In this document: positions 7,442 to 62,501 of the stretch, one piece after another | Numbering within the stretch: position 1 is the stretch's first letter | Layout: each line of letters starts with the position of its first letter | Virus record (IMG/VR): IMGVR_UViG_3300031772_000033 | Span: 1-62,501 of that record | Origin: a virus | Reading direction: 5' to 3' (one strand) | Length of the DNA stretch: 62,501 bases | The notes under the pieces: model-generated | Told to the model about the DNA's origin: nothing | The model's database searches: none | What the model saw: the letters and a program-made list of their open reading frames with translations, nothing else | Translations under genes and position numbers: made by a program

Positions 7442-7450
7442 GAACATGAA

Positions 7451-7948: not shown

Positions 7949-7951
7949 AAT

Positions 7952-10309: not shown

Positions 10310-10326
10310 TTTAATCGGAGGATAAA

Positions 10327-10791
10327 ATGAAATTCAAAAGTTTAATATTAATCCTGTTCTGCGTGGGGCTTTACGCGCAAGGCGTGCATCAAGACATCAA
10401 TGTTCTAACGCCCGAAGGCAGTTCAACATTCAGAATCAAGTATAATGCATCTGACACTTCGGCGGTTTACCATACCTATGAAATAATGAGCGCGCGGTTC
10501 TGGGTGGGCGATTCAATCGGCGGAGCGACTGATTCGGCATACGTTACTTTCATACTGCAAATTGGCCCTGGCGATAATGCTTCTGGAGTCATGGCCGGTT
10601 ATACGACCGTTGAATCGTGGGTAGTCTCAACCGATTCCACGTTTTCAACTCAAATGATTACAGACAATGCAATCCCGAATGGTTCGCATTTCAGGTATAT
10701 TTTAACTGGAAGTACAACCAACAGACAGGAATATTCGGGGTCATTGGCAAAGATTCTTCATATGAATTATGAAAGTGATCCGAGAAATTAG
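10327..10791 (+). CDS. Secreted protein of the fibre cluster
   Basis: 154 residues with a signal peptide (MKFKSLILILFCVGLYAQG) whose likely cleavage is after Ala, before Gln. The mature part is Ser/Thr-rich and beta-like (TFRIKYNASDTSAVYHTYE). ATCGGAGGATAAA gives a good ribosome binding site. It is one of a set of exported proteins placed after the SGNH protein. No family is recognised; a fibre or fibre-assembly accessory is the best guess. Confidence 0.6.
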   Translation: MKFKSLILILFCVGLYAQGVHQDINVLTPEGSSTFRIKYNASDTSAVYHTYEIMSARFWVGDSIGGATDSAYVTFILQIGPGDNASGVMAGYTTVESWVVSTDSTFSTQMITDNAIPNGSHFRYILTGSTTNRQEYSGSLAKILHMNYESDPRN

Positions 10792-10850
10792 AAAAATCAT
10801 TTTCTTTTAAAGAAAATGAAATTAAAATAAACAAAATCAATTTATAACAT

Positions 10851-10905
10851 AGAGGCGTTTAATGCCCGACCGTCCGCAAGGATGAATCGGGTTTATTTTT
10901 GGAGG
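10851..10905 (+). promoter_or_regulatory. GNRA-hairpin leader element, copy A
   Basis: The segment reads AGAGGCG, then GCCCGA (10864-10869), an inner TCC-GCAA-GGA hairpin (10874-10882 approx.), TCGGGT (10887-10892), a T-rich run, then GGAGG and the ATG of the fibre gene at 10910. The same plan recurs at 57242-57299 before the protease-scaffold gene. A 6-bp outer stem enclosing a GNRA tetraloop and followed by T residues could be a terminator/attenuator or a translation control element. The upstream 60 bases (10792-10850) are AT-rich and hold no gene. Confidence 0.55.
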
Positions 10906-10909
10906 AAAT

Positions 10910-12727: not shown

Positions 12728-12728
12728 T

Positions 12729-13673
12729 ATGAAACGGTTCATATTTATAATCCTATTTCTGCCTGTTTTATTGCTTGGGCAGATGACCTCCGAATTCATC
12801 CCGATAAAAGGTTTATCTCATTGGGATGAACAAAGCGGGAAATGGTATATCGAATTTGATCGTTTTAAGTTGGCATATAAAATTCCAAGTATAAAAGTAT
12901 ATAACTTATCTAATATAGATACTACCGGAATTATTGAAAATAAAGAATATGGTTATAATAATATCCTCGATGATTGGAAACCGAAAGAAGTTTTTTCTGC
13001 GGGTGGAACAGGTCCTCCCGGTCCCCAGGGCGATCCGGGTGAACCGGGACCACAGGGCGAGCAAGGCATACAAGGTATCCCCGGAAACGACGGCGCACCG
13101 GGATCAAAAGGTGACACAGGGGAACAGGGAATTCAAGGCATTCAGGGCATACAGGGTCCACCGGGAGCGGACGGTAGTGTGGTTTTGGTCCTTTCCCTTA
13201 CGTCAAACGCTCCCACAAACAGTACCGCGACAGGCGTTGAGATTCTTGGGCTGAATAAAACCTTAACAGCCGGAACCTACGTCTTTAAATATTACATAAT
13301 TTACCAAGCAGGCGCCGCGACAACAGGAGTTCAGTTCGGAGTAAATTATACAGGCACAGCCAAGGCCTTCGTCGTCAATATGTCTTTTGCCGGAACGGGA
13401 ACTACTGCCTCTACGGGTGCGGCGTCTCAGGTTGCTTCGGGAGCCACAGGGAATGTCGGGGAAACCTTCGCCGCAAGAGCGGAAAGCACAACCGCGCCGA
13501 ATCTTGGGGCGACCGTGAGCGTGGACGCACTTGGCAGTAATATGTTAGCCATAATCGAAGGGGTCATGGTTGTGAGCGATGGCGGTGATTTGGAATTATG
13601 GCACGCCTCGGAAGTTGCGGCGGCCTCGACCGTGATGGCCGGAACATCTCTGATTCTTACAAAAACAAATTGA
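12729..13673 (+). CDS. Secreted collagen-like fibre protein
   Basis: 314 residues from the ATG at 12729, preferred over 12714 because GGAGA is well placed and a signal peptide ([18 protein letters not shown]) then begins the protein. Residues about 95-147 are Gly-X-Y collagen-like triplets ([19 protein letters not shown] and onward). They are followed by a beta-rich C-terminal domain that probably forms the trimer head. Collagen-like segments are common in phage fibres. The start overlaps the previous gene's end region closely (stop 12727). Confidence 0.7.
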
Positions 13674-21361: not shown

Positions 21362-21825
21362 TCTGGAAAGACCCCACAACTCCCGACGAATGGACTGAAC
21401 TTTTTAAGCAAGTCCAGATCGATTTCGAGAAAATCGAAATCCCCGACGTGATGAGCATTCAGCCGGGGGAAGTATTGGAACCCTCCGAGATCAACGTCGA
21501 GATTGTCAAGACGGCCAAGGCATTCAGAGAAACCGGATCAATCAAGGATCGGGCGCGACGGTTGGAAGCGATTGCCAAGCGGTGGTACGAACAGGCCAAA
21601 GCAAAGGCGGTCCTCGAACTCCGGTCCGCCGCAAACCGGGAAATCTATTCATCCGATGAACTCCGGAAGGCATATGCCGAAGATCAGGCCGCAGCGGTCC
21701 GCGGACTGTGGGACGCCTCCCGCGTCTTGGCCGCTTCGATAAAGGATGAACGCCAGCGCATTTATCAATATCGGAAGGATCTTGAAAATATTGGTAATAA
21801 CGCCCGATGGACACCGAGGGCATGA
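21358..21825 (+). CDS. Helical protein of the recombination/replication operon
   Basis: 155 residues, ATGA-coupled to the previous gene. Almost wholly helical with Ala, Arg and Glu (RARRLEAIAKRWYEQAKAKA), GC-rich like 20337-21047. No motif of known function. Confidence 0.55.
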   Translation: MIWKDPTTPDEWTELFKQVQIDFEKIEIPDVMSIQPGEVLEPSEINVEIVKTAKAFRETGSIKDRARRLEAIAKRWYEQAKAKAVLELRSAANREIYSSDELRKAYAEDQAAAVRGLWDASRVLAASIKDERQRIYQYRKDLENIGNNARWTPRA

Positions 21826-21844
21826 ACCACAAAGGAGGAAAGTC

Positions 21845-22336
21845 ATGATTATCACATTAGATTGGTTGAAAAAACACAGTGCCTGCGTCGAAGGCATCAG
21901 ATGGTTCGGCTTAGAAAATCGTGATGCGAAAGAGGTCATTGAAAGCCTTATCGCTGATCATCCTAAAAATTCGGACGCCTTGCAATGGGCGAACTGGGCA
22001 ATCACGAGAATACTGGATCGTCCCGACAAAATCCGGTATGCCGTTTTCGCCGCAGAACAGGTCATTGATATTTTCGAAAAAAAATATCCAGATGACAAAC
22101 GACCAAGAAATGCGATAGAAGCGGCGAAAAAGGTGATTGAGGCAGATACGCAGGAAAACAGGAACGCCGCCTACGCCGCCGCCGACGCCGCCGCCTACGC
22201 CGCCGCCGACGCCGCCGACGCCGCCTACACCGCCGCCGCCGCCTACACCGCCGCCGCCGCCTACACCGCCGCCGCCGCCTACACCTACGAAATGAGGATA
22301 AAAATTTTACGCTATGGGATAACGTTGCTGAAGTGA
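21845..22336 (+). CDS. Ala-rich helical repeat protein (Imm5-like)
   Basis: 163 residues from the ATG at 21845 with AAAGGAGGAAAG. Helical N-terminal region (CVEGIRWFGLENRDAKEVIE), then KRPRNAIEAAKKVIEADTQE and an extended Ala/Tyr/Asp run built on AAYAAADAA and AAAYTAA units. Related proteins are common in phages and resemble Imm5-type putative immunity proteins. The coding DNA of the run is a GCC-rich near-triplet repeat. Confidence 0.6.
   Translation: MIITLDWLKKHSACVEGIRWFGLENRDAKEVIESLIADHPKNSDALQWANWAITRILDRPDKIRYAVFAAEQVIDIFEKKYPDDKRPRNAIEAAKKVIEADTQENRNAAYAAADAAAYAAADAADAAYTAAAAYTAAAAYTAAAAYTYEMRIKILRYGITLLK
22169..22284 (+). repeat. GCC-rich low-complexity repeat
   Basis: Repeats of GCCGCCGCCTACACC and GCCGCCGACGCCGCC lie in frame with the Ala-rich protein. 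Local GC content is far above the rest of the genome. Length changes by slippage would keep the frame when in steps of three. Confidence 0.85.
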
Positions 22337-36802: not shown

Positions 36803-36913
36803 GCCGCCCGTGGCGAAATTATTAAAAGCTACCTGACAGAGGGCAGACCCCGAATAACCATGCCGGTTAGGCGAATAAGGGGCACTTGCGGGTGCAAATC
36901 CCGTCGGGCGGCA
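36803..36913 (+). ncRNA. tRNA-like RNA of about 110 nt
   Basis: GCCGCCCG (36803-36810) pairs with CGGGCGGC (36905-36912), an 8-bp acceptor-like stem. GCGGG-TGCAAAT-CCCGT (36888-36904) is a T-arm with a 7-base loop close to TTCAAAT. GTGGC (36810-36814) can pair with GCTAC (36828-36832) as in a class II D-arm. CCCC/GGGG and AACC/GGTT in the middle could form a long variable arm. No normal anticodon loop is clear and the D-loop lacks GG, so it is tRNA-like or a degenerate long-arm tRNA. Confidence 0.5.
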
Positions 36914-36917
36914 ACAA

Positions 36918-36989
36918 GGGACGGAAGTGTAACGGTCGCACCTCTGGCTGTGGCCCAGAGAGCACTCGGTTCGACTCCGAGCCGCCCCT
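36918..36989 (+). tRNA. tRNA-His (GTG)
   Basis: All arms fold in order: acceptor GGGACGG/CCGCCCC with one A-C mismatch, D-arm GTGT/GCAC with GG in the loop, anticodon arm TCTGG-CTGTGGC-CCAGA with T33 and anticodon GTG, variable GAGCA, and T-arm CTCGG-TTCGACT-CCGAG. Oddities: position 8 is A not T, the acceptor mismatch, and discriminator T where bacterial tRNA-His has C opposite an extra G. It could be a divergent but working tRNA or a degenerating one. Direct neighbour of an RNA ligase gene. Confidence 0.75.
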
Positions 36990-37017
36990 CAACGAATTTA
37001 AAAAAAAGGAGAATAAA

Positions 37018-37926
37018 ATGACTTCATGGCATTCTTATCCAAGTGTTTTTGCAATGGGACACAAGGCCATTGAAAATCTTTTTAATGGGCCTGTTTTATG
37101 CGAAGAAAAAATTGATGGATCGCAATTCTCTTTCGGAAGATTTGATGGTATTTTAAAAGTCAAATCCAAGGGGAAGGAAATTATCCCGGAAGCACCAGAG
37201 AAACTATTTTGCGAAGCCATTGAAACCGTAAGTAAATTAGACCTTATTGAAGGACGTACTTATCGTGGAGAAGTTTTACAGAAACCTAAACATAATGCGA
37301 TTGCCTATGACCGCATTCCCAAGGGGAATGTTATTTTATTTGATATAAATATTAACGAAGAAGAATATCTATCTTACGATGAAAAAAAACAAGAAGCCGA
37401 CAGGATAGGACTTGAAGTTGTTCCGATTCTATATTACGGAGAAATTAAAGAACAGAAAATCATTCTTGATATGCTTGAAACAATTTCAATTCTTGGAGGC
37501 CAGAAAATTGAGGGCGTTGTAATTAAAAATTATGCACAATTCGGCAGAGACAAGAAAGTATTAATGGGGAAATATGTTTCCGAGGCATTTAAGGAAGTTC
37601 ATAAAAAGGAATGGGGTGAATCAAATCCCGGCCAGAATGATATTCTCACAAGATTAATTACAATGTTAAAAACTCCAGCACGATGGGACAAATCTGTTGT
37701 CCATTTACGTGAACGCGGGGAACTTGAAAGCAGCCCAAGAGACATTGGAAAACTAATCCCGGAAATCAAGCACGATGTTGAAACCGAATGCGAATCCGAG
37801 ATGAAAGAGGTTTTATATAAATGGGCTAAAGATCATGTTTTGCGCGGAGTAACGGGAGGCGTAGCCGAATGGTACAAAAAGAAACTTTTGGAAAGTCAAT
37901 TCGAGAATAATGACACGGTATTATAA
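37018..37926 (+). CDS. RNA ligase (Rnl2-like)
   Basis: 302 residues from the ATG at 37018 with AAAAAAAGGAGAAT; upstream in-frame codons lie in the tRNA. Motif I is EEKIDGSQ with the nucleotidyl-accepting Lys31 (KIDG). Motif IV is EGVVIKNY near 165 and motif V MGKYVS near 183. This is the nucleotidyltransferase core of the RNA ligase family; the C-terminal 110 residues are helical as in T4 Rnl2-type enzymes. Placement 28 bases after tRNA-His suggests tRNA repair. Confidence 0.85.
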   Translation: MTSWHSYPSVFAMGHKAIENLFNGPVLCEEKIDGSQFSFGRFDGILKVKSKGKEIIPEAPEKLFCEAIETVSKLDLIEGRTYRGEVLQKPKHNAIAYDRIPKGNVILFDININEEEYLSYDEKKQEADRIGLEVVPILYYGEIKEQKIILDMLETISILGGQKIEGVVIKNYAQFGRDKKVLMGKYVSEAFKEVHKKEWGESNPGQNDILTRLITMLKTPARWDKSVVHLRERGELESSPRDIGKLIPEIKHDVETECESEMKEVLYKWAKDHVLRGVTGGVAEWYKKKLLESQFENNDTVL

Positions 37927-38230: not shown

Positions 38231-39317
38231 AACGGAAATGCTAACATCCAAGAATGATTTCACCAAAGATCAATACAGGGAATTACAATTCGAAAACAAG
38301 CGGTTATCTTCTCGACTTGTGAAAATCGCCGCAGTTCAGGAGAATATCATTGAGGCGATAACATCCACCTGTAAAGCACTTCCAAGTGAAAACCCTCCAA
38401 AGATAGACGTAGGGAAGGCTCCGAAACGTTATCCCGAAGAACGTGCCGTTTTGAATATTTCGGATTCACAGATAGGATCGTATGTCAGCAAATATTTAAC
38501 TGGCGGACTTTGCGAATATAATAAAACGGAATTTGTGAAACGCATAAAACGGCTAACTCATAATATGCTTGAGATTACGCGCATTCAGAGAACTGGCGGG
38601 GTTCCGGTGAAGAAATTAAACCTTCATTTTCTCGGCGATGTTGTGCAAGGAGAATCAATATATCCGGGTCAAGGGTTTTATCTTGATGCATTGTTGCTTG
38701 AACAAACTTTCGAATTGGCATCCCGTTTTGTATTTGATGTGATAATTCCTCTAAGCAGGGAATTCGAACAGGTAGAGATTTTCTGTATTCCTGGAAATCA
38801 CGGCAGGCAGGCAGGACCAAGGAATTCTTCGCGTGAAGCAAACTGGGATTATGTTGCATATATTTTTTGGAGGCAATTACTCAAAGAATATAAGCATATA
38901 AAATTATATATATCGCAAAGTCCATTCTTGATTTATGAATTATTCCCAGGACAACTTCATGCTCTCATTCACGGGAACCAGGCAAAGGGTTGGATGGGAT
39001 TTCCGTATTATGGAATTGATCGGGTATTCGGACGGCTTAAAACCTTGACTAATCTTCCGATTCAGTATTTATATCATGGACATCATCACCAACCAGCAAG
39101 CATGGATGCGCATATCGGACGAAAAATCGGTAACGGTTCAATCGAGGGCGGATCCGAGTATTCGGTATGCGATTTAGTTACCGCTAATGTTCCGCAACAG
39201 TTTTATTGCGGTGTAAATTCTAAAGGGATCACTTGGGAATATTGGATTAGATTGGCCGATGTTCCGAAAATGATCGCGGATGATCATGGGATTTTTACGC
39301 CGATTATGAAAGAATAA
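38211..39317 (+). CDS. Calcineurin-like metallophosphoesterase
   Basis: 368 residues, AAAGGAGAAATTGG upstream. The metal-binding blocks are in order: SDSQIG near residue 85, FLGDVVQG with Asp143, IPGNHGR with Asn196 and His197, HALIHGN near 254, and YHGHHH near 282. Phage members of this family are often found with replication and repair genes. The substrate could be nucleic acid or nucleotide ends, perhaps end-healing before RNA ligation, which is inference from the neighbouring ligase. Confidence 0.8.
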   Translation: MPIELNKTEMLTSKNDFTKDQYRELQFENKRLSSRLVKIAAVQENIIEAITSTCKALPSENPPKIDVGKAPKRYPEERAVLNISDSQIGSYVSKYLTGGLCEYNKTEFVKRIKRLTHNMLEITRIQRTGGVPVKKLNLHFLGDVVQGESIYPGQGFYLDALLLEQTFELASRFVFDVIIPLSREFEQVEIFCIPGNHGRQAGPRNSSREANWDYVAYIFWRQLLKEYKHIKLYISQSPFLIYELFPGQLHALIHGNQAKGWMGFPYYGIDRVFGRLKTLTNLPIQYLYHGHHHQPASMDAHIGRKIGNGSIEGGSEYSVCDLVTANVPQQFYCGVNSKGITWEYWIRLADVPKMIADDHGIFTPIMKE

Positions 39318-39346
39318 TTAATAATCAGGCGTGTTCACTAAAAAGC

Positions 39347-39369
39347 CTTGCTCAGTCAGACTGAGCAAG
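39347..39369. promoter_or_regulatory. Near-perfect 23-bp dyad
   Basis: CTTGCTCAGTC-A-GACTGAGCAAG is an 11-bp inverted repeat around one base. It lies in the 106-base gap after the phosphoesterase. It is not followed by a T-run on the + strand but has AAAAAG just before it, so it could terminate transcription coming from the other strand or be an operator. Confidence 0.6.
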
Positions 39370-39423
39370 TCAAAAGACTGAACAGTTTAAAAAAATGCAC
39401 ACAGGTAAACTAAAGGTAGACCA

Positions 39424-39642
39424 ATGAGTAAATACGAAGACTGGAAATCGGGTGAATGGGAGAGGGTTAAGAAGAAGGGTTTCAAGCTCATGTGTTGCTC
39501 TTGCAGTCTTGTCCACGTTTTAGATTTCAAAGTGGAAAAATGCGGTCGGGAATTGCACGTATATGTTAGGGTGCGTCGTGATGATCAGGCGACGGCGGCG
39601 GCGCGCAGAGGCAAGGTAAAGACAATCGTGGTAACGGATTAG
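39424..39642 (+). CDS. Small Cys-containing phage protein
   Basis: 72 residues. The pattern KLMCCSCSLVHVLDF and a later Cys, then an Arg-rich VYVRVRRDDQATAAARRGKV, matches a phage hypothetical type often seen near replication genes. Function unknown. Confidence 0.55.
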   Translation: MSKYEDWKSGEWERVKKKGFKLMCCSCSLVHVLDFKVEKCGRELHVYVRVRRDDQATAAARRGKVKTIVVTD

Positions 39643-39654
39643 GAGGGATTCACG

Positions 39655-39819
39655 ATGCAAAGCCCATGCAGGTATGACGTTCTCGATGCGGATAGTAGTC
39701 TTGTGCTTATATTTGATTCTAACGATGAATATATCTGTCAAACAAGTTCAGAGGAAAAGGCTAAAATGATTATTCAGAAATTAGACACTAACGGAGGATT
39801 AAAGGAACATGACGGATGA
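39655..39819 (+). CDS. Small accessory protein
   Basis: 54 residues, TTAGGAGGGATTCACG upstream. Beta then helix (YDVLDADSSLVLIFDSND). Overlaps the next gene. Function unknown. Confidence 0.5.
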   Translation: MQSPCRYDVLDADSSLVLIFDSNDEYICQTSSEEKAKMIIQKLDTNGGLKEHDG

Positions 39820-39994
39820 CCTTGACCGCTTAACGCTTCAAGCTGAGATTTCAAACTGGAAATCCTGCCTATTGGACCCTGTGACAACAAACGGCGAGCG
39901 TCGGGTATTGCAGAAATTAATTGCGGATGCGGAAAAAGCTTTGAAAACCGGAGAACCTGTAAAATATAAGAAATTAAAAATAATAGAACTATAA
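39809..39994 (+). CDS. Small helical protein
   Basis: 61 residues, ATG 11 bases inside the previous gene with GGAGGATTAAAGG upstream. Helical (LTLQAEISNWKSCLL). Function unknown. Confidence 0.5.
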   Translation: MTDDLDRLTLQAEISNWKSCLLDPVTTNGERRVLQKLIADAEKALKTGEPVKYKKLKIIEL

Positions 39995-40027
39995 GGTTAA
40001 CTCACAACTCACAAAAGGAGAAAGAAG

Positions 40028-40225
40028 ATGGACAGATTCGGAACGGTCGGTATCGTGGTGGTGATTATTCTCATCCTTCTTGCGGTATTTGGATATGTGT
40101 CCAATATCGTAAAACTTATCGGATGCGATTTCGCCTCACCGTATAAGGCGGAAATCTTCAGGATTGTCGGAATTATTATGCCGCCGGTAGGAGTTATCAT
40201 AGGTTACTGTAATTTAGGTAAGTAA
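40028..40225 (+). CDS. Two-helix membrane protein
   Basis: 65 residues, AAAAGGAGAAAGAAG upstream. Transmembrane segments VGIVVVIILILLAVFGYV and IFRIVGIIMPPVGVIIGY. Small proteins of this build may alter the host membrane or block superinfection; not proven. Confidence 0.6.
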   Translation: MDRFGTVGIVVVIILILLAVFGYVSNIVKLIGCDFASPYKAEIFRIVGIIMPPVGVIIGYCNLGK

Positions 40226-40232
40226 TTAATCG

Positions 40233-40303
40233 AGCGGATACGCGCGTTTCGTATGGAGCCATACTCACGGAAGCAAGGGTCATAACCTTGACCGCGCTCC
40301 GCT
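40233..40303 (+). ncRNA. tRNA-like RNA with a Met-type anticodon arm
   Basis: AGCGG (40233-40237) and GCGCG (40242-40246) pair with CCGCT (40299-40303) and CGCGC (40293-40297). Inside are GTATGG/CCATAC (40251-40264) and CAAGG-GTCATAA-CCTTG (40274-40290). The last hairpin has a 7-base loop with T33 and CAT in anticodon position. There is no T-arm, so this is not a standard tRNA. It lies in the gap before the GTG at 40329. Confidence 0.45.
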
Positions 40304-40328
40304 TGAATTAAATTTAAAGGAGGTAAAT

Positions 40329-40532
40329 GTGATACCTGAAGTCATGAAGGTTGATCGGTTCGGGTTAAACTCCACAACCAGATTCAAACCGAAACCGCGA
40401 TTCCAGGAGAAACAACTTGTATGCGAGATTCGTGCTTTGACTGAGGGCGTCTGCTACAGTCACGCTCATTGCCACCGAGGCGACGGGATAGGCGGAGAAC
40501 TCAAATGCCAAATCGTGAAACGCGAGGAATAA
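40329..40532 (+). CDS. Small Cys/His protein
   Basis: 67 residues from a GTG with AAAGGAGGTAAAT. CEIRALTEGVCYSHAHCHRG is a possible metal site. Function unknown. Confidence 0.5.
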   Translation: MIPEVMKVDRFGLNSTTRFKPKPRFQEKQLVCEIRALTEGVCYSHAHCHRGDGIGGELKCQIVKREE

Positions 40533-40535
40533 AGC

Positions 40536-40742
40536 ATGAGATGTCCTAATCCTGCATGTGGCAGTAATGATTTGGCAGTCGAAACAACGCGCGAAGATCC
40601 GGATAATCCTAAAATATTGGAACGCAAGCGATATTGTAAAAAATGCGGCCAACGATTATTTTGCGTGGATGAAATCAAATATTTACTTCCACCGAAACGG
40701 CCATACAAACGTCATGGGATACTGAGCATGGAAAGGTCATAG
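40536..40742 (+). CDS. NrdR-type zinc-ribbon protein
   Basis: 68 residues. MRCPNPACGSNDLAV and KRYCKKCGQRLF reproduce the zinc ribbon at the N-terminus of the NrdR regulator, without its ATP-cone domain. Such short versions are frequent in phages and may bind DNA. It is the last gene before the AT-rich control region. Confidence 0.6.
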   Translation: MRCPNPACGSNDLAVETTREDPDNPKILERKRYCKKCGQRLFCVDEIKYLLPPKRPYKRHGILSMERS

Positions 40743-41080
40743 TAATACATTGCCTGTTTTTACGGATCGCCCTACGAGCCTCTAATGCGTTCACTTAATT
40801 TTATATATTTCAATAACTTAACTATTGTTTATAAATTTATCAAATTTGCATGAGGATTTTTTGAAGACCTATAATTCGCACATAACCTATTATTTTCTTT
40901 AAATTCAATATTATCAAACAATTAAGACGGTGTATTATATGGCTTGTGGCGAGAGTTAATTTCTTAAAAGTACGCTTTCCCTTGCTATAATGATTATAGT
41001 TATAGCAATTTATTTTCAAATGCCTCAATAAAAACAATAACTTATAACCTTTTAATATCCCTTAAAAAATACGATTTCCC
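40743..41080. other. AT-rich gene-free control region
   Basis: No supportable gene on either strand. It holds an inverted repeat TTGCTATAA-9-TTATAGCAA (40982-41008) and a 14-base motif TACGCTTTCCCTTG (40971-40984) that recurs as TACGATTTCCCTTG at 41070-41083, the second copy running into the strong promoter. This could be a promoter-operator cluster or contain an origin. Confidence 0.55.
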
Positions 41081-41109
41081 TTGACATTGACAGTATAATG
41101 ATGTATATT
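41081..41109 (+). promoter_or_regulatory. Strong sigma70 promoter
   Basis: TTGACA (41081-41086), 17-base spacer, TATATT (41104-41109). Near-consensus. It drives the two-gene unit that ends at the terminator at 41709-41731. Confidence 0.8.
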
Positions 41110-43123: not shown

Positions 43124-43453
43124 ATGAGAAATGGAATCAAGTATTTCAATGAAGTTGATGACCAAGGTAATCCCACGGGCGGAACAGTAACGGGGGTTGG
43201 TATTGGGATTGCATGGCAGAACGGTCCTCTTGGTCGAGGAACAGAGCGGAAGGAACCGAACGGTGCATTTGTGGAGGATGTCATTGATGCATGCGCTAAA
43301 CGGATTCGGTTTTATCAAGAAACCAAGGGCGGTATTTTTGCTTGTCGTCAGAATGCTCTTGCCTTAACAAAACTCGAAGAGGCTCTGCATTGGCTTGATG
43401 ATCGGACCAAGGAACGGGAAGAACGTCTTGTCGAAGGAACACACATTCCGTAA
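43124..43453 (+). CDS. Acb2/Tad1-like anti-defence candidate
   Basis: 109 residues, GGAACGGAGGAGAAG upstream. The C-terminal 60 residues, with FVEDVIDACAKRIRFYQ, then CRQNALALTKLEEALHWLDD and LVEGTH, form the helical hairpin I associate with Acb2/Tad1-type phage proteins. These bind cyclic nucleotides and block CBASS or Thoeris signalling. The call rests on that pattern and needs a profile search. Confidence 0.55.
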   Translation: MRNGIKYFNEVDDQGNPTGGTVTGVGIGIAWQNGPLGRGTERKEPNGAFVEDVIDACAKRIRFYQETKGGIFACRQNALALTKLEEALHWLDDRTKEREERLVEGTHIP

Positions 43454-43866: not shown

Positions 43867-44124
43867 ATGATAACTCGTGAAGTTTACGAAACCATTCTCG
43901 CAACTATGATTCTTTTAACAAATATTTTTATCGGAATAGGTATATGGGTGATTCTCTTCAAAGTCAATCAAGCATTCAGGAAAGATATTTTTGATTTGAG
44001 ACTTAGAATGGAAATAATTAAGGACATGAAGAAGTATAAATTAACCTTGCAGGAAGTTATGTATTGTTGGCAATGTGGTTTGACGGCACTTCTGGAAATT
44101 AGGCAGATAAAAAAACATGCTTAA
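43867..44124 (+). CDS. Single-span membrane protein
   Basis: 85 residues from the ATG at 43867, GCGAGGTGAG upstream. One transmembrane helix (ILATMILLTNIFIGIGIWVI) then a charged helix and CWQCG. Overlaps the radical SAM gene. Function unknown; may anchor the cassette. Confidence 0.55.
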   Translation: MITREVYETILATMILLTNIFIGIGIWVILFKVNQAFRKDIFDLRLRMEIIKDMKKYKLTLQEVMYCWQCGLTALLEIRQIKKHA

Positions 44125-44773
44125 TCACGGTTATGGCATTCTTAAAAGACTCAAAAAAGGTATACGGATTTATATCTTCGTAACGTTTCATTGTCAATTG
44201 AATTGTTCGTATTGCAGTAATAAGCCATTCGAAGGCGACGAATTAGAGCCCGATCCACAAATGAATTTTGTTCCCGAAATGGATTGGCGGAAATGGGTTG
44301 ACTTGATTGAGACTTTTCCGGTGCGCGTGCGCGAGATTGTGATCGAAGGCGGTGAAACTTTACTTTATCCGGGAATTGGAAATCTTATCAATGCCTTAAT
44401 TGCAAGTGGGCGATTCGTAACATTATATACAAATCTTGAATTACTCAATGATGATTTAGGGATTGAACCAAGCAATAAGTTGAGGATTCAAGCATCGGCA
44501 CATCTGCAAGGACGGAATGAAATTTCTAACGAATTTTGTAAGGCATACACCGAAAATGAAAATAAATACAGAATCGATGTTGATGTTTTGGGAAATGAAA
44601 CAAGAAAAACAAATGGATTAGTACGTTTTAATAAAATCCTATCTCCGAAAGAATTGCGTGAAAGTCCCGAATGGACGGCAAAACAATTCAGGATATTGCC
44701 AAATGGTGAAATACATATAAGCAAAGGTCGTTTATTATCCGCCGTTTACGAAAAAGAATATGAAACTTTATAA
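44117..44773 (+). CDS. Radical SAM protein 1
   Basis: 218 residues. CQLNCSYC (Cys26, 30, 33) is the radical SAM CxxxCxxC cluster-binding loop and EGGE at residues 77-80 is the AdoMet-binding motif. The barrel appears short compared with typical members (about 218 instead of 300 or more), and no SPASM Cys set follows. It may make a single radical modification. It sits at the start of a row with a methyltransferase, a second radical SAM enzyme and two glycosyltransferases. Confidence 0.8.
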   Translation: MLNHGYGILKRLKKGIRIYIFVTFHCQLNCSYCSNKPFEGDELEPDPQMNFVPEMDWRKWVDLIETFPVRVREIVIEGGETLLYPGIGNLINALIASGRFVTLYTNLELLNDDLGIEPSNKLRIQASAHLQGRNEISNEFCKAYTENENKYRIDVDVLGNETRKTNGLVRFNKILSPKELRESPEWTAKQFRILPNGEIHISKGRLLSAVYEKEYETL

Positions 44774-45575
44774 TAAATTCACGAAATTTAAAAGTATTTT
44801 CAAATTGTCCGTTATTTATCGGTTCAGTCCGGTTAAGATTTTCCGTGCAATTAAGGAAATTATACGGTTTATAAATGATTTCACATTATTCGATAATCAA
44901 CGTAAACAGTCAACATATAAATTTCCATACGGAAATTTGAATCCCTGTATGGGCGAACGGGACAGAGACGGGATTAATTCGAAGGAGTATTTTTATCAGG
45001 ATTTTCATGTTGCAAAAAGAATACTTGAAAACAAACCAGAGAAACATGTTGATATCGGATCGCGATTTGATGGATTCATTACTCATTTGTGCCTATTCCG
45101 TGAGGTTGAAGTTTTCGATATCCGGCCCTTGACCGTGACTTTGCCAAATTTGAAATTTATTCAGGCTGACATGATGGAATCTATAAGTAAATCATTTCTT
45201 GATTATGCCGATTCAATTTCATGCCTTCACGCCTTGGAACATTTCGGCCTTGGCAGGTATGGAGATCCGATTGATTATGATGGACACTTAAAGGGACTTG
45301 ATAATATTTACAGGATTTTAAGGAAAGGTGGAAAATTTTATTTATCCGTGCCAATAGGCGAAGATAGGATTGAGTTTAATGCTCATCGAGTATTTTCGCT
45401 TGGTTATCTCTATGCCTTATTCGAAGATAAATATAAAATTAATAATTTCTCATATATAGATAATACCGGCCCGTTAGGAAATTTTCATGAAAATATTTTT
45501 GTATTTGCGCATGATATAAATAATAATTTTGGTATTGTTCAGGGATGCGGAATATTTGAAATGACCAAATTATGA
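44760..45575 (+). CDS. DUF268-type SAM methyltransferase
   Basis: 271 residues, overlapping the previous gene. DIGSRFDGFITHL near residue 98 is the AdoMet motif I, VEVFDIRPL follows, and CLHALEHFGLGRYGDPIDYD near 157 is the DUF268 signature. These methylases are usually found in surface polysaccharide clusters. Overlaps the next gene by ATGA. Confidence 0.75.
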   Translation: MKLYNKFTKFKSIFKLSVIYRFSPVKIFRAIKEIIRFINDFTLFDNQRKQSTYKFPYGNLNPCMGERDRDGINSKEYFYQDFHVAKRILENKPEKHVDIGSRFDGFITHLCLFREVEVFDIRPLTVTLPNLKFIQADMMESISKSFLDYADSISCLHALEHFGLGRYGDPIDYDGHLKGLDNIYRILRKGGKFYLSVPIGEDRIEFNAHRVFSLGYLYALFEDKYKINNFSYIDNTGPLGNFHENIFVFAHDINNNFGIVQGCGIFEMTKL

Positions 45576-45955
45576 AATATTTTATATTATTTATTATGTT
45601 ATTAATAAGCATGGTGAATGCACAAGTTATGTGCAAAAAATCGTGGGATTCTTGTGATGGAGCATTTTTCAAATATGATAAATCCGAACATTTAATCGGT
45701 TCCGCAATTTTATATCAAGGTTTTCGAACATATAATTGGGAACCTAAAAAGCGATTATTGTATTCTGTTTTATCTGGTTTTCTTTGGGAGGTTAAAGATT
45801 CGTTAATTTCTTATAAGGATTTTGGTAGAATGGGTGGTGATGGATTTGATTATAAGGATTTTTTGGCCGATTGTGCGGGTATATTCTTATCATATGAATT
45901 AGAAAAGATTCATATTAATATAACATTTAGATTATACCTGGAAAAGGAAATTTAA
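45572..45955 (+). CDS. Secreted YfiM/DUF2279-like protein
   Basis: 127 residues, ATGA-coupled. Signal peptide MKYFILFIMLLISMVNAQ. The mature part has YDKSEHLIGSAILYQGF, GFLWEVKDS and DGFDYKDFLADCAG, the DK-x-x-H, E-x-x-D and D-x-x-AD layout of YfiM-like envelope proteins. Overlaps the next gene by TAATG. Function in the cassette unknown. Confidence 0.6.
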   Translation: MKYFILFIMLLISMVNAQVMCKKSWDSCDGAFFKYDKSEHLIGSAILYQGFRTYNWEPKKRLLYSVLSGFLWEVKDSLISYKDFGRMGGDGFDYKDFLADCAGIFLSYELEKIHINITFRLYLEKEI

Positions 45956-46911
45956 TGTTTCAGCATTTGCAAATTTGCCCGACATGGCGCTGTAATCTCA
46001 AATGTCCTACTTGTGATTCATGGCAAAGGGATCAAAAGATCGAACTTTCCAAGGGGCAGATTGATCAAATTGCAAAAGATGAATTATTTGGAAGAGTTAA
46101 ACATCTAATCATCGAAGGCGGGGAACCGTTTACATTTACTAATTTGGATTATTTCATTGACAAAATGTCACGGGTATACGATAAGATAGCCATTATCACA
46201 AGCGGTTATTTATACGCAAGAATCGGCATGTTTTTAGAGAAATATGCGGGGATCAAAAATCGTTTGCGATTTGTAGTTTCGCTCAATGGGATAGATAAAT
46301 ATCACGACGAAACAAGGGGAAAAGACGGGGTATATGCCCATGTTATAAATACAATCGCATTATTACAAAGTCATGGATATGCTTTTAATTTGCAATTTCT
46401 TCCGACTGAAACGAATCAAGGCCAGTATTGGGAGGTAAAAGAATTTGCGGATAAATTAGGTGTGAGCGTAAATGTCTGTCATCCCTCAAAGATCGGCAAA
46501 TATGCAATTGAATCTACCGAGGGGATGTTGAAAGAATATGATATCATCAAGGCTGAACAGGCAAAGTCTTTACCTTGGAGAAGTAGATGGGAATTTGAAT
46601 GTTTCAATGACATGAAGAAACGCAAAAAATTCATGCCATGTTGGGCTGGAAAGAAAATGATTTATATTGATCCAAGAGGAACAATTCGACCTTGCGCCAT
46701 TAACGAGGAAATGTCATTGGGAATTATTTATGATCATGAAATTTTTATGAAAAGCGGAGAAAGATATCAAGATGAACTTGATTTAATCCCTGAATATTGC
46801 CAATACCGAACTGGGCAGGTTTGTAATCAGACATATATTGGATATACGCTTCATCGCAAACCATTTTATCTATTAAAATGGAGGCTCGGAAAATGGCTAA
46901 GAAAAAAGTAG
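45955..46911 (+). CDS. Radical SAM/SPASM-like protein 2
   Basis: 318 residues. CNLKCPTC (Cys13, 17, 20) and EGGEPF (54-59) mark a radical SAM enzyme. Several Cys in the last third (PCWAGKK, RPCAINEE, EYCQYRTGQVC) resemble a SPASM/twitch auxiliary cluster region. Such enzymes modify peptides or sugars. Close relatives occur in polysaccharide clusters as well as peptide-maturation loci, so the substrate cannot be fixed. Confidence 0.8.
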   Translation: MFQHLQICPTWRCNLKCPTCDSWQRDQKIELSKGQIDQIAKDELFGRVKHLIIEGGEPFTFTNLDYFIDKMSRVYDKIAIITSGYLYARIGMFLEKYAGIKNRLRFVVSLNGIDKYHDETRGKDGVYAHVINTIALLQSHGYAFNLQFLPTETNQGQYWEVKEFADKLGVSVNVCHPSKIGKYAIESTEGMLKEYDIIKAEQAKSLPWRSRWEFECFNDMKKRKKFMPCWAGKKMIYIDPRGTIRPCAINEEMSLGIIYDHEIFMKSGERYQDELDLIPEYCQYRTGQVCNQTYIGYTLHRKPFYLLKWRLGKWLRKK

Positions 46912-46917
46912 AATTCA

Positions 46918-47664
46918 ATGATAATCATTAAGATAGTTGGCGGTCTCGGAAATCAGTTGTTTCAGTATGCTTACGGCCTTGCACTTGCGAAACGGAACAA
47001 TACCGATCTCTACCTTGATTTGTCATGGTACGAGACAGGCAAGGATTTGGAGTGGTTCGGGAAGCACAACGATAGGCCATTTCTTCTGAGCGGACTGTTT
47101 GGCGTTCATGTTGTATCACCGTTTAATATTTTAAAATATATTAGAAAAGTAAAAGAAACGCAATTTCAATTTGATCAAAGTCTTTATGATTTAGGCAACA
47201 ATCATTATATCAGGGGGTATTTTCAAAGCGAGCAATACTTCGATAATATCAAGGATGAGATGAAATCTATATCCAGATTTGGAGAATTTTACGATATAAG
47301 AAGACGGATTAAAGAGGGAGGTTTTGATACAGCTATTCATGTCCGTCGCAGTGATTATCTGACCAATCCAGTTAATTACGTACTTCCAGAAACATATTAT
47401 CGAGAAGCCAAGGAAATACTGGAAAGTAAAAAGGTTATAGTTTTTTCAGATGATCCAGATTATTCCGATTGGAACTCCATTGATCCCATTCATGACATGA
47501 TTGCGATGTCATGCTTCCCGAAGATCATTACGGCAAATAGTTCATATTCATGGTGGGCCGCATGGCTTTCGGATGCGCAAGTTGTATGTCCCAAGAAATA
47601 CTTCGCAACTGGACATGATAAGAATATGAGTGATTTCTGGCCAAAAACATGGATTCAAATATGA
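46918..47664 (+). CDS. GT11 fucosyltransferase-like protein
   Basis: 248 residues. GGLGNQLFQYAYGLALA at the start, HVRRSDYL near residue 141, and DMIAMSCFPKIITANSSYSW at about 190-210 are the GT11 (alpha-1,2-fucosyltransferase) motifs; the HxRRxDY block binds GDP-fucose. It would add fucose or a related 6-deoxy sugar to a glycan. Phage GT11 genes are uncommon. Confidence 0.85.
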   Translation: MIIIKIVGGLGNQLFQYAYGLALAKRNNTDLYLDLSWYETGKDLEWFGKHNDRPFLLSGLFGVHVVSPFNILKYIRKVKETQFQFDQSLYDLGNNHYIRGYFQSEQYFDNIKDEMKSISRFGEFYDIRRRIKEGGFDTAIHVRRSDYLTNPVNYVLPETYYREAKEILESKKVIVFSDDPDYSDWNSIDPIHDMIAMSCFPKIITANSSYSWWAAWLSDAQVVCPKKYFATGHDKNMSDFWPKTWIQI

Positions 47665-48374
47665 ACCCGAAAGTCTCAATCATAATAACCAATTTTCGAC
47701 ATGATGCTTATTTGCCATTTGCTGTGATGTCGGTATTGAACCAGACCTTTAAAGATTGGGAATTGATAATCGCAAACGATAATCCAGATTCTAAAACGCC
47801 TTATTATGATCGGATAGACAAAAGAATATTAGTCATGGATGCGAAAAAAAATATTGGACAGCCAGCACGTATTAACTTTTGCATTCCGTGGTTGCGCGGA
47901 GAATTCACGGCTTTTCTGGATGCAGATGATTATTGGCTACCGTGGAAGTTAAATTACCAACTCGGATTTGATTTTGATATGACATACGGGGATTGTCTCG
48001 TAAAGCAAGCAGACGGAAAGACGCGATTGGTACATACAAAGCCCTGGGACAGGGATATGGTTTTACATAAACAATGCTTGACAACTTTTTCAAGTATAAT
48101 TGTGAAAACCGAACTACTGAAACGATGTCCTTTTCCCGAAGACATTGGAAATGGAAATGATAGGGTATGGACTTTAGATCTTTCGTTATTGACGGACAAT
48201 ATTTTATATACACCCTTGCCGCTTTTCGTTTACAGGGACTATACATCACAGTTCAGAAAACAGTTCAATTTTAATCCAATTACGAAATTTAATACTTTAT
48301 TGAAACGAGTTGAGCGGAGAAAGAAAAACAAAGTGCTTCAGGATTACATTAACAGGCGATATGATGTTAAGTAA
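47661..48374 (+). CDS. GT2 family glycosyltransferase
   Basis: 237 residues from the ATG at 47661 (ATGA overlap), preferred to 47649. VSIIITNFRHDAYLPFAV at the start and DADDYW near residue 87 (DxD metal site) define an inverting GT-A GT2 enzyme. Cytosolic, no membrane segment. Works in the same cassette as the GT11 enzyme. Confidence 0.85.
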   Translation: MNPKVSIIITNFRHDAYLPFAVMSVLNQTFKDWELIIANDNPDSKTPYYDRIDKRILVMDAKKNIGQPARINFCIPWLRGEFTAFLDADDYWLPWKLNYQLGFDFDMTYGDCLVKQADGKTRLVHTKPWDRDMVLHKQCLTTFSSIIVKTELLKRCPFPEDIGNGNDRVWTLDLSLLTDNILYTPLPLFVYRDYTSQFRKQFNFNPITKFNTLLKRVERRKKNKVLQDYINRRYDVK

Positions 48375-48687
48375 ATTAACTGAATATTACATAATTTGCA
48401 CTAACCGTCTGGATTACGGTTTTAGGAATATAGGGAATTTCTCGCGGTTTCTTCAGATGGGCGCGACTGCCGCATTAGTTCTAAAAGTTTTCGGAGTAAC
48501 GACAAACAAATCAATTATAATACCATTAGTTGCCATGCTTATCATTGTGACGATTTCGTGGATGTTAGGTAAAACTAAACTTCAGGCTAAGCAATTGAAA
48601 TATGACTCAGAGAGAAATCGTGCGTGGGTGGAATTAGTTGAACAGGTTAAGAGACTTGAAAATAAAATCGATGAGTTAAGAAAATGA
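48361..48687 (+). CDS. Membrane protein with coiled coil
   Basis: 108 residues from the ATG at 48361 inside the GT2 gene end (a longer frame to 48310 is unlikely). Two transmembrane helices (QMGATAALVLKVFGV and IIIPLVAMLIIVTISWML) and a C-terminal coiled coil (ERNRAWVELVEQVKRLENKI). Overlaps the next gene. Function unknown. Confidence 0.55.
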   Translation: MMLSKLTEYYIICTNRLDYGFRNIGNFSRFLQMGATAALVLKVFGVTTNKSIIIPLVAMLIIVTISWMLGKTKLQAKQLKYDSERNRAWVELVEQVKRLENKIDELRK

Positions 48688-48947
48688 ACAACAATGCATT
48701 TGAAAGAGGATTGCTTTTAATCTTTTTGGTTTTATTTGAAATGATGATACTTGTTGTAATTGCCAATTACAATTCAATCCCTCCGCATACATGGATTGGT
48801 GGGTTTGTTTATCGTTGGATGGAAGCACTTTGTATGCCTGAGTATAAGGGTTTTGATCGGATATTTTTATTTATGAATTGGGGATTAATACTGTTCTTTA
48901 TCGCGCAATCGTATTTTTTGAATAGATTATTGAAAGGCAAGCATTGA
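48684..48947 (+). CDS. Two-helix membrane protein
   Basis: 87 residues, ATGA-coupled. Transmembrane segments LLLIFLVLFEMMILVVIA and IFLFMNWGLILFFIA. May form part of the envelope step of the glycan cassette or be independent. Confidence 0.55.
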   Translation: MNNNAFERGLLLIFLVLFEMMILVVIANYNSIPPHTWIGGFVYRWMEALCMPEYKGFDRIFLFMNWGLILFFIAQSYFLNRLLKGKH

Positions 48948-49252: not shown

Positions 49253-49312
49253 AGGTTAAACGTTCTTATTTATATGGGGAAGAGTGATAACTCACAAGGG
49301 AATAAAGACTCG

Positions 49313-50470
49313 ATGGTACAATACCAATTAAAACTTAAACTAAACAAAAAACAAGAAACCACACTTAATGAATGGTTGTGGAATCTTACTGGAGTTTGGA
49401 ATTGGGCTATTCGTAAAATAGAACTTGATGCTCAATATGGAATATATTACAGTAAATTCACTTTTCAAAATATACTTGCGAATCATAGCAAAAAAATTTG
49501 TATTCCAAGCCATGTTTTAGGTGGTATACTTTCACAGGCACATCTCGCATGGTCTCGATGCTTTAAAAGGAAAGCAAAAAAACCACACTTTAAGGGACAA
49601 CGAAACAAATTAAATAGTATCCCATTTCCCGATCCCATTAGATCACCCAAAGAAAACCACATTACTCTTTTGGGTATTGGAAAGATACGTTTTCATAAAC
49701 AGAAATTACCAGAAGGAAAAATTAAATGTGGCCGGATTATTAAAAGGGCAAGCGGGTGGTATTTATGTGTTTTTATTGATGCCGAACGAAAATCGATTGA
49801 ACGCAAAGCATTTGGACGAATAGGCATTGATCCGGGATTTAAAAATCTTTTAACATTATCAACCGGCGAAAAAATAGAACATCCAAGAGAATTAGAGGCA
49901 ACAGAAAAACGTTTAGGACAAGCACAAAGAGGACACAATAAAAAATTAGCATCACGTCTTTCGGAACGCAGAGCCAATAGAACGAAAGACAGGAATCATA
50001 AACTTTCACATAAACTTATCGGTGAAAATATTTTTATTGCATTTAGTGCGGACAAACATCAGAACATAGCAAGAAAATTCGGGAAGTCAGTTTCCAGTTC
50101 TTCCCATTATCAGTTAAGACAGATGCTTTCCTACAAGAGCCATTCAGGCGGTACGGAATACGTTGAGACTGATTCGAGAAATTCCACCAAGACCTGTTCG
50201 AACTGTGGGGCCTTAACCGGTCCTACGGGCTTGAGCGGCTTGTCGGTAAGGCAATGGGTGTGTGTTGCTTGTGGGGCAGAACATGACCGCGATATAAATG
50301 CGGCACGGAATACGCTCATTGTCGGGGCCGGAATGGCCCACGAGGTGCATAATGTAAAAGCATTATGCAGTCCGAAATCTTATGCAACTGGGTTCAAATC
50401 TTTCGCGCTTGCGGGTGCGGATTCGTTAGTATTGAGCCCATGCGCAAAGGAAGTTCAATTATTCGCCTGA
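49313..50470 (+). CDS. tnpB: TnpB (IS200/IS605 OrfB-like RNA-guided nuclease)
   Basis: 385 residues from the ATG at 49313 (a 398-residue version starts at 49274, without a clear ribosome binding site). The order fits TnpB: helix-turn-helix start (QYQLKLKLNKKQETTLNEWL), IDPGFKN with Asp173 (RuvC I), a Glu in the region LIGENIFI (RuvC II), paired Cys CSNCG (295, 298) and CVACG, and HDRDINAARN (RuvC III). No TnpA transposase is nearby. TnpB normally uses a guide RNA from the 3' end of its own gene. It separates two small SH3-like genes. Confidence 0.85.
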   Translation: MVQYQLKLKLNKKQETTLNEWLWNLTGVWNWAIRKIELDAQYGIYYSKFTFQNILANHSKKICIPSHVLGGILSQAHLAWSRCFKRKAKKPHFKGQRNKLNSIPFPDPIRSPKENHITLLGIGKIRFHKQKLPEGKIKCGRIIKRASGWYLCVFIDAERKSIERKAFGRIGIDPGFKNLLTLSTGEKIEHPRELEATEKRLGQAQRGHNKKLASRLSERRANRTKDRNHKLSHKLIGENIFIAFSADKHQNIARKFGKSVSSSSHYQLRQMLSYKSHSGGTEYVETDSRNSTKTCSNCGALTGPTGLSGLSVRQWVCVACGAEHDRDINAARNTLIVGAGMAHEVHNVKALCSPKSYATGFKSFALAGADSLVLSPCAKEVQLFA

Positions 50471-61145: not shown

Positions 61146-62275
61146 AAAAATATTTGATTCTATTCATGGTTTTCGTTGTGGGTTATGCAATCGCTCAACC
61201 CACGGTCGTCCAGAATGCGCAAGTTTTTTCAAGCAAGGTGTATCTACGCGGCGGGATAACGGCATACAGAGGCATGACACTTTCCGCAAACAACTCCTAT
61301 AATAATCTGTTTGTGGTTTCCGATGCGGATTCGTTCAAGGTGCGGATGTTTCAGTATCTTTATCCCCTTGAAATCGAAATTGGGAACTCTCAGATTTTTG
61401 CCGTGGACTCGACTGGCATCGCTCTTCCCAAGGCCCTTAACGTAACGGGCAACAGTGGACTTGCGAACATTTTTGTTGTATCCGATGGCGATTCCACTAA
61501 AATAAGAATGTACAAGTATCTATATCCGTTGGAAATCGAAATCGGAAACACACAGAAGGCCGCGATTGATTCCGCCGGTAATGCTGTTTTTGCCGGGACC
61601 GTTTCGGCGGCTGCATTCAGTCCCACGGCCACGTCCGATATTCAATCGAGATATATTTTGATTCTTTCGGACGGAGATTCTACTACTATCGATCCGAGAT
61701 CGGCTCAATATATGTTCAGGATCGGTCTTGGCGGGGCGAAGAAATTTGCGGTTGATAGTGCGGGTAATGCTTATGCTGTTTCGTTGCAAACTCCGACGCT
61801 TAACGGTGTGTCTAACGCAATGGCCGTCACTACTAAAATGACTATTGCAAACAACTATCCACTTATTACGACCAGTTCGATTACGGCTGATTCAGTCAAT
61901 ATCACCACTCTGGCCGGTTCAGCGGGTGCAATGGCGATCAATACCAAGATGACGATTGCCAATAATTACCCGTTCGTAACCAACAGCACCATTACGGCGG
62001 ATTCCATTATCGTTCCGGTAATCGCCGGAGTTGCAAACGCTATGGCAGTTAATGCCAAACTGAATATCGCGGCGAATTATCCGCTTGTATCGAGTTCTTC
62101 AATCGCAGCGGATACTCTCAAGGCAACATCGGGAAATGTTCAAATTATTGACATTGACACCGTGGCAACTGCCGGTCTGGTTAAGCGATGGTTAAAACTT
62201 ACCGTTACCAAAGCGACGGGAGCGGGAAAACCTGAAACTTATTATATGGTTTCGGACACAACTTCACTTTATTAA
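61142..62275 (+). CDS. Secreted fibre-like repeat protein in the head module
   Basis: 377 residues, ATGA-coupled. Signal peptide MKKYLILFMVFVVGYAIAQ. Repeats include LFVVSDADSFKVRMFQYLYP / IFVVSDGDSTKIRMYKYLYP and three copies of NAMAVxxKMTIANNYPxxT near residues 225-320. This is the same VDSAGNA-type fibre language as the 10910 gene. A secreted fibre between capsid and neck genes is unusual; a head fibre or secreted decoy are possible roles. Its last codons recur at bases 1-28. Confidence 0.65.
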   Translation: MKKYLILFMVFVVGYAIAQPTVVQNAQVFSSKVYLRGGITAYRGMTLSANNSYNNLFVVSDADSFKVRMFQYLYPLEIEIGNSQIFAVDSTGIALPKALNVTGNSGLANIFVVSDGDSTKIRMYKYLYPLEIEIGNTQKAAIDSAGNAVFAGTVSAAAFSPTATSDIQSRYILILSDGDSTTIDPRSAQYMFRIGLGGAKKFAVDSAGNAYAVSLQTPTLNGVSNAMAVTTKMTIANNYPLITTSSITADSVNITTLAGSAGAMAINTKMTIANNYPFVTNSTITADSIIVPVIAGVANAMAVNAKLNIAANYPLVSSSSIAADTLKATSGNVQIIDIDTVATAGLVKRWLKLTVTKATGAGKPETYYMVSDTTSLY

Positions 62276-62501
62276 GAGGCTATTAATGCTCAAAAAGATT
62301 CTCCTTTTCTCCTTCTTGTTTTGTGGTTTGGGTTGTTCTCAGGACGCGGGGCCGAAAAGCCCCGCACCTGAGACTGTTCCTTACGCACAATATCAGGAAA
62401 CAAAAGACGCGCTCCACGATTACGTTTTAGAAAATCGCAGAGCCGCAGAACTTAACAAAAAACTTATTAATGACATCAATGTTTTTGTCAATGAACTCAA
62501 A
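62248..62501. repeat. Right copy of the 254-bp end repeat
   Basis: Repeats bases 1-254 with one substitution at 62374. It contains the last 28 bases of the fibre-like gene and the first 216 bases of the lipoprotein gene. Confidence 0.95.
62286..62501 (+). CDS. Lipoprotein gene, second copy (cut by window end)
   Basis: First 72 codons of the gene at 39-359, identical except Thr for Ser in the segment PAPETVPYAQ. It is the same gene seen twice because the genome is circular, not a duplication. Confidence 0.85.
   Translation, partial: MLKKILLFSFLFCGLGCSQDAGPKSPAPETVPYAQYQETKDALHDYVLENRRAAELNKKLINDINVFVNELK

Follow-up and report, generated by a model that had tools for sequence, protein, structure and literature searches.

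Organization of the locus

The window analyzed here, IMG/VR virus record IMGVR_UViG_3300031772_000033 (positions 1 to 62,501, 62,501 nucleotides), is an entire viral genome that carries at positions 44117-48374 a run of six genes, in the order rSAM1, DUF268, YfiM-like, rSAM2, GT11 and GT2. It encodes two radical S-adenosylmethionine (SAM) proteins, a methyltransferase, a small protein and two glycosyltransferases (GTs). We think it probable that this run includes a compact glycan-tailoring cassette, borne by a probably virulent tailed phage and decorating either the virion or the host envelope. An earlier note on this DNA, made from the sequence alone, had given the right coordinates and reading frames but counted five genes instead of the following six:

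44117-44773, plus strand: rSAM1, radical SAM protein of 218 amino acids (aa), no SPASM domain (Pfam Radical_SAM, E = 2.3e-10, above the gathering cutoff)
44760-45575, plus strand: DUF268 (PF03269), class I SAM-dependent methyltransferase (Pfam, 2.5e-16)
45572-45955, plus strand: small YfiM-like protein, hydrophobic segment at its N-terminus (phrog_26616, 1e-3)
45955-46911, plus strand: rSAM2, radical SAM protein with a short, possibly SPASM/twitch-type C-terminus (Pfam Radical_SAM, 8.8e-13)
46918-47664, plus strand: GT11, alpha-1,2-fucosyltransferase family (Pfam, 2.2e-10; phrog_2644, 1.4e-36)
47649-48374, plus strand: GT2 (GT-A) with DADD (Pfam, 6.6e-14; PDB 6p61, 5.8e-11)

Neighboring genes overlap by 1-16 nt or, in one case, are separated by a 6-nt gap. 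These genes are real and intact, and five of the six proteins score above the curated family cutoffs of Pfam, in agreement with the identities previously proposed for the two radical SAM proteins (both with CxxxCxxC and EGGE motifs), DUF268, GT11 and GT2. Since five separate family matches exceed their cutoffs and DUF268 is full length with its invariant columns, this gene set is well beyond chance. The GC content of the cassette is 36%, compared to 41% genome-wide; this was rejected as proof of a recent transfer because about 4% of the segments of the same size are as low and other genes of the phage are lower.

The DUF268 methyltransferase and its association with GT11

DUF268 scores 60.5 bits against a cutoff of 25 and has a class I methyltransferase fold. 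It retains the invariant residues in an alignment of 64 rows, with identities mostly of 39-52% to the aligned bacterial homologues and of 25-34% to the copies from three other phages. Structure modeling, one of the checks suggested in the earlier note, gave a confident model for this protein (AlphaFold, predicted local distance difference test (pLDDT) of 92.7) but not for rSAM1 (see below). The Foldseek matches of the DUF268 model are generic class I methyltransferases that give no clue to the substrate.

The neighborhoods of DUF268 relatives were searched in one genome per species, and the best 80 of 178 relatives were kept; these loci, being those nearest to the protein of the window, are a biased sample and their counts ignore shared ancestry. 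The fetched DNA contains a GT11 homologue in 21 of the 80 loci, no farther than 2.5 kb away in 16 cases, and the nearest GT11 lies on the same strand as DUF268 in 20 of these 21 loci. In three zones around DUF268 (up to 2.5 kb, 2.5-5 kb and 5-10 kb), the gene densities are 43.8, 3.3 and 15/Mb for GT11, compared to 43.8, 26.5 and 25.7/Mb for GT2 and 16.4, 33.1 and 38.6/Mb for GT4. The ratio between the nearest zone and the next 2.5 kb is about 13 for GT11, 1.7 for GT2 and 0.5 for GT4. In 45 of the DUF268 genomes, the GT11 background is roughly 0.1/Mb (about 16 genes in about 166 Mb), and of the 13 genomes with at least one GT11 gene, 11 carry such a gene at the DUF268 locus. The two genes adjoin in bacteria belonging to several phyla. 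These bacterial pairs resemble the window in that both families are close and on the same strand but differ from it by being chromosomal, in larger clusters and seldom accompanied by a radical SAM gene. The statement that DUF268 and such radical SAM genes usually sit in bacterial surface-glycan clusters is supported insofar as the relatives of DUF268 and rSAM2, and also those of GT11, lie in glycan clusters, but it is not supported for DUF268 and radical SAM as a usual pair, since a radical SAM-like open reading frame (ORF) is within reach in only four of the 80 loci.

In the DUF268 tree, the copy of the window pairs with that of an Ignavibacteriaceae metagenome-assembled genome (96/82), apart from those of the other phages, in a topology with long branches and unsettled bootstrap, too weak a basis for assigning a host. 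A glycomics paper on Caenorhabditis elegans (2023) places DUF268 among the members of glycosylation gene clusters and calls the fucose-modifying methyltransferase unidentified (PMC7614267). According to a more far-reaching proposal, DUF268 would be devoted to the O-methylation of GT11-type fucosylated glycans, in bacteria as in phages and possibly also in the nematode clusters, and this phage would make an O-methylated, fucosylated and radical-modified virion glycan. Taken as a whole, this proposal is unlikely.

Glycosyltransferases

GT11 reaches 40.7 bits (cutoff 23.9) and has the HxRRxDY motif, as HVRRSDY, as well as GNQLFQY and NSSYSWW. Its relatives are found in 103 phage records, mostly of cyanophages; in the annotated phage loci that were examined, other glycosyltransferases lie alongside and most loci also include sugar-nucleotide or methyltransferase genes. 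Judging from its family, its donor is most likely GDP-fucose.

GT2 reaches 52.6 bits (cutoff 23.3), with the DxD motif present as DADD, and falls far under the cutoff of TuaG- and PglI-like models. It matches weakly a GtrB-like PHROG (2.9e-4). A temperate serotype-conversion (gtr) cassette was considered and rejected, because no GtrA-type protein was found among the scanned cassette genes, GT2 is devoid of membrane segments and the phage proteins include no integrase or resolvase (see below).

Radical SAM proteins

Both radical SAM motifs are in register in rSAM1: CQLNCSYC (CxxxCxxC at residue 26) and EGGET (GGE at residue 78). No relative of rSAM1 was found at 1e-9 in 593 genomes, nor among phages, plasmids or PDB sequences. 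Single-protein scans of viral contigs also gave no match for rSAM1, rSAM2 or the large terminase subunit (TerL), but these scans need exact 8-residue matches and are therefore weak negatives.

In rSAM2, whose Pfam score exceeds the gathering cutoff, the motifs are CNLKCPTC (CxxxCxxC at residue 13) and EGGEP (GGE at residue 55). When rSAM2 is aligned with its relatives from polysaccharide clusters, Cys13/17/20, GGEP and C229/C247/C282 prove invariant. The SPASM match (19.8 bits, 1e-3) is under the cutoff of 21.5, and one cysteine of the relatives has no aligned counterpart. Searches of 49, 395 and 395 genomes found relatives 24-32% identical to rSAM2, the nearest bacterial ones being in exopolysaccharide clusters. 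In the extended loci, the better matches have GT4 genes on their flanks and Wzx-type, exosortase and polysaccharide-export genes in the vicinity; a few of the weaker matches lie outside polysaccharide loci.

These neighborhoods also bear on another explanation, in which both radical SAM proteins would carry out a modification typical of ribosomally synthesized and post-translationally modified peptides and the glycan genes would be unrelated cargo. The best NCBIfam match of rSAM2 is AlbA (6e-19) and its best PDB match is SkfB. However, the AlbA model has a cutoff of 850 bits and rSAM2 scores 67.8, rSAM2 reaches the curated NCBIfam cutoff of no named radical SAM equivalog (AlbA, HpnH, NirJ, MoaA and others), no precursor peptide is evident, and the relatives found in genomes point to polysaccharides. 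We therefore consider peptide modification very unlikely.

An alignment-based scan retrieved rSAM2-like genes from at least 20 viral contigs, many of which are phages with several radical SAM-like genes. Six viral contigs (L126, L133, L137, L138, L140 and L142) have, judging from motifs, at least four such genes each, many of them with a Cys-rich N-terminus.

Phage genome and lifestyle

The ends of the record carry the following repeat:

1-254 and 62248-62501, strand not applicable: terminal direct repeat with one mismatch (253/254 identical)

Because of this 254-bp repeat, the genome is closed, with a size of about 62,247 bp. The possibility that the cassette is a host chromosomal fragment, which the earlier note had raised against its own reading, or belongs to a chimera is thereby rejected. 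At 52-61 kb are the genes for the terminase, the portal, the protease and the major head protein; those for the tape measure and for a collagen-like fibre are at 4-14 kb. The cassette lies about 4 kb upstream of the TerL gene. The best matches of the major head protein are 28-32% identical and belong to the Roseobacter phages RDJL and to phages of Rhizobium, Vibrio and Arthrobacter, most of them having genomes of 58-69 kb. No DNA-level relative of the window was found among 50,697 phage records. Searches with positive controls detected neither tyrosine integrase nor resolvase among the proteins of the window, which makes virulent growth likely. This element is a tailed phage, probably virulent, and its major head protein has a distant similarity to that of the RDJL Roseobacter phages and of comparable phages of about 60 kb.

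Phage GTs and radical SAM proteins are known in base hypermodification. Decoration of the phage DNA bases by the products of the cassette would therefore have a precedent (Pyle et al. 2024, as cited in PMC12619734). However, the same controlled searches found no thymidylate synthase homologue in the window, which argues against DNA glycosylation. Furthermore, the scanned proteins include no base-modification enzyme beyond ordinary DNA methylase-like ones, and GT11 and GT2 are glycan-type families. This explanation is thus highly improbable, even more so than peptide modification.

Other features of the genome include an RNA ligase-like gene (phrog_548) at 36886-37926, which at the start of its longest ORF overlaps a tRNA-His gene (36918-36990), and a segment of about 1.8 kb (39317-41098) devoid of any plus-strand ORF of at least 80 aa in an otherwise dense genome. 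An Imm5-like immunity-protein domain (1.3e-8) is encoded by a phage gene at 21746-22336.

The YfiM-like gene and flanking genes

Three genes encoding putative membrane proteins flank the run:

43867-44124, plus strand: 85-aa membrane protein with a hydrophobic segment, overlapping rSAM1 by 8 nt
48361-48687, plus strand: membrane protein whose tail is a coiled coil, 14-nt overlap with GT2
48684-48947, plus strand: small membrane protein, two hydrophobic segments

The successive gaps across 43867-48947 are -8, -14, -4, -1, +6, -16, -14 and -4 nt, and this geometry places the gene of the 85-aa protein in the same transcription unit as rSAM1.

The YfiM label was not retained: the protein has no Pfam match up to E = 1 and its only match is the PHROG phrog_26616, annotated as "lipoprotein". 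No relative was found in the plasmids or phages that were searched. One relative (1.2e-10) is carried by a bacterial contig, among genes that, from their sequences, appear to encode tail-sheath-like and other phage-type structural proteins. In this contig, a gene encoding a membrane/coiled-coil protein comes next after the YfiM-like gene and there are no glycan genes. In the window, a membrane/coiled-coil protein comes after GT2. Because this relative lies among phage structural genes without glycan genes, the YfiM-like gene and the flanking membrane genes are probably part of the phage backbone, between which rSAM2, GT11 and GT2 would have been inserted, as suggested by this one comparison. 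Therefore, the YfiM-like gene is probably neither a member of the cassette nor glycan-related.

About 660 bp upstream of the cassette, 43124-43453 encodes a protein of 109 aa that matches the Acb2/Tad1 hairpin domain under its cutoff (3.3e-5) and is a candidate anti-CBASS/anti-Thoeris sponge. Directly downstream of the cassette, a TnpB/IS605 OrfB-type gene is found at 49274-50470 (Cas12f1-like TNB, 8.4e-21).

Glycan genes in other phages

Four phage lineages besides that of the window encode DUF268 together with glycosyltransferases or sugar enzymes, two of them amid virion genes. L004 and its near-copies L002, L003 and L005 carry DUF268 with GT11 and a GDP-mannose dehydratase (Gmd). The P22-like L020 encodes, at 5647-13167, GT2, DUF268 and a fusion of a GT10 fucosyltransferase with GT2 between coat and tail genes. 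L019 (9731-18832) has DUF268 and a two-domain glycosyltransferase beside a (Gly-Thr-Thr)n collagen-like fibre, which is a candidate O-glycosylated virion fibre. L021 carries DUF268 in an O-antigen-like cluster with a B12-type radical SAM gene. The DUF268 copies of L004, L020 and L021 branch separately from that of the window. L128 carries an rSAM2-like gene in the vicinity of those for a UDP-GlcNAc 2-epimerase and for a capsule-type protein. All these IMG/VR contigs resemble the window by a DUF268 and/or rSAM2-like gene beside glycan genes, but none carries its full gene set.

Pelagimyophages carry cassettes of glycosyltransferases and radical SAM proteins in their host-recognition cluster and therefore resemble the window by this association in a variable region; they differ from it in being large and T4-like, with tail fibres in that region, and the DUF268/GT11 set is not mentioned in the accessible part of the source (PMC7029224). 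Lipopolysaccharide (LPS)-type clusters of cyanophages (S-SM2, S-SSM7, ACG-2014f, S-T4, and S-SCSM1, PMC9602691) share with the window phrog_2644-type GT11, other glycosyltransferases and methyltransferases. They are mostly longer and include nucleotide-sugar enzymes, radical SAM and DUF268 are unannotated in the regions examined, and their GT11 are only 30-34% identical to that of the window.

The earlier claim that no phage system of this sort had been described was thus overstated as regards the kind of system. The neighborhood search that it recommended found DUF268-GT11 pairs in bacteria and partial sets in phages, but nowhere the full set. Overall, phage-borne glycan genes are of a known kind, while the exact combination was not found elsewhere and looks new.

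Proposed function and target

The assignment of the cassette to glycan tailoring relies on the neighborhoods of the DUF268, rSAM2 and GT11 relatives and on the family of GT2. In the proposed mechanism, GT2 and GT11, as soluble enzymes, would transfer host-supplied activated sugars onto an acceptor, DUF268 would O-methylate a sugar of the glycan, and rSAM2, perhaps with rSAM1, would act on a sugar or sugar nucleotide by oxidising, epimerising or deoxygenating it. Displayed on the virion, which is slightly favoured, or on the host envelope, the product could then alter recognition by receptors, competing phages or enzymes. Substrates, reaction order, acceptor, benefit and the fucosylated product are putative. 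BtrN is a known carbohydrate-acting radical SAM enzyme. Since such enzymes exist (BtrN, and cytosylglucuronate decarboxylase, a weak match by sequence), radical chemistry on a sugar is plausible from the family context. From the idea of a phage that builds or remodels a fucosylated, radically modified glycan or glycopeptide, the earlier note's central one, we thus keep a phage-borne glycan cassette in a closed genome, its fucosylated product, radical chemistry and glycopeptide being conjectural.

Several points weigh against this proposal. rSAM1 is an orphan without informative relative, and its structure predicted without alignment has a pLDDT of 34. rSAM2 is only 22-27% identical to its relatives from polysaccharide clusters. 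Furthermore, the clusters in which the bacterial relatives act are those of cell-surface polymers, which speaks for the host envelope rather than the virion, and the collagen-like fibre of the window is not Thr-rich and lies 30 kb from the cassette.

Within this glycan-tailoring proposal, the two targets are near even, with the virion slightly favoured. A capsid, tail or fibre protein could be O-glycosylated in the cytoplasm during assembly, a possibility to which we give somewhat less than an even chance. To our knowledge, no radical SAM, DUF268 or GT11 protein is known in the virion glycosylation of mycobacteriophages. That system nevertheless resembles the window by its phage-encoded glycosyltransferases, and glycans on virion proteins have been shown experimentally in some of these phages (Freeman et al. 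2023, cited in PMC12619734 and PMC11256854). The lean to the virion comes from rSAM1 and the four family-assigned enzymes, which are all devoid of predicted membrane segments, from the lack of membrane glycan components in the run and of a lysogeny gene, from the position of the cassette some 4 kb upstream of TerL, and from the modules of L019 and L020 located in virion regions. On the other side, no substrate protein was identified, the collagen-like fibre having few Thr.

Alternatively, and with a slightly lower probability, the cassette could alter the lipid-linked O-antigen, capsule or exopolysaccharide units that the host makes. An infected cell would then keep out competing phages, or its debris would stop trapping the progeny. 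The surface polysaccharide clusters that harbor bacterial relatives of DUF268 and rSAM2, together with the cyanophage LPS-type clusters that harbor GT11 relatives, lean to this target, and the authors of the pelagimyophage study interpreted their cassettes in this way (PMC7029224). However, the gene run includes no flippase, polymerase, GtrA/GtrB-type or polyprenyl-phosphate enzyme, and the lack of integrase and resolvase makes lysogenic conversion unlikely.

Whichever its target, this cassette provides a small self-contained gene set for testing the targets of phage-borne glycan enzymes. The finding most worth following is the link between DUF268 and GT11, which gives a testable role to an uncharacterised family of methyltransferases.

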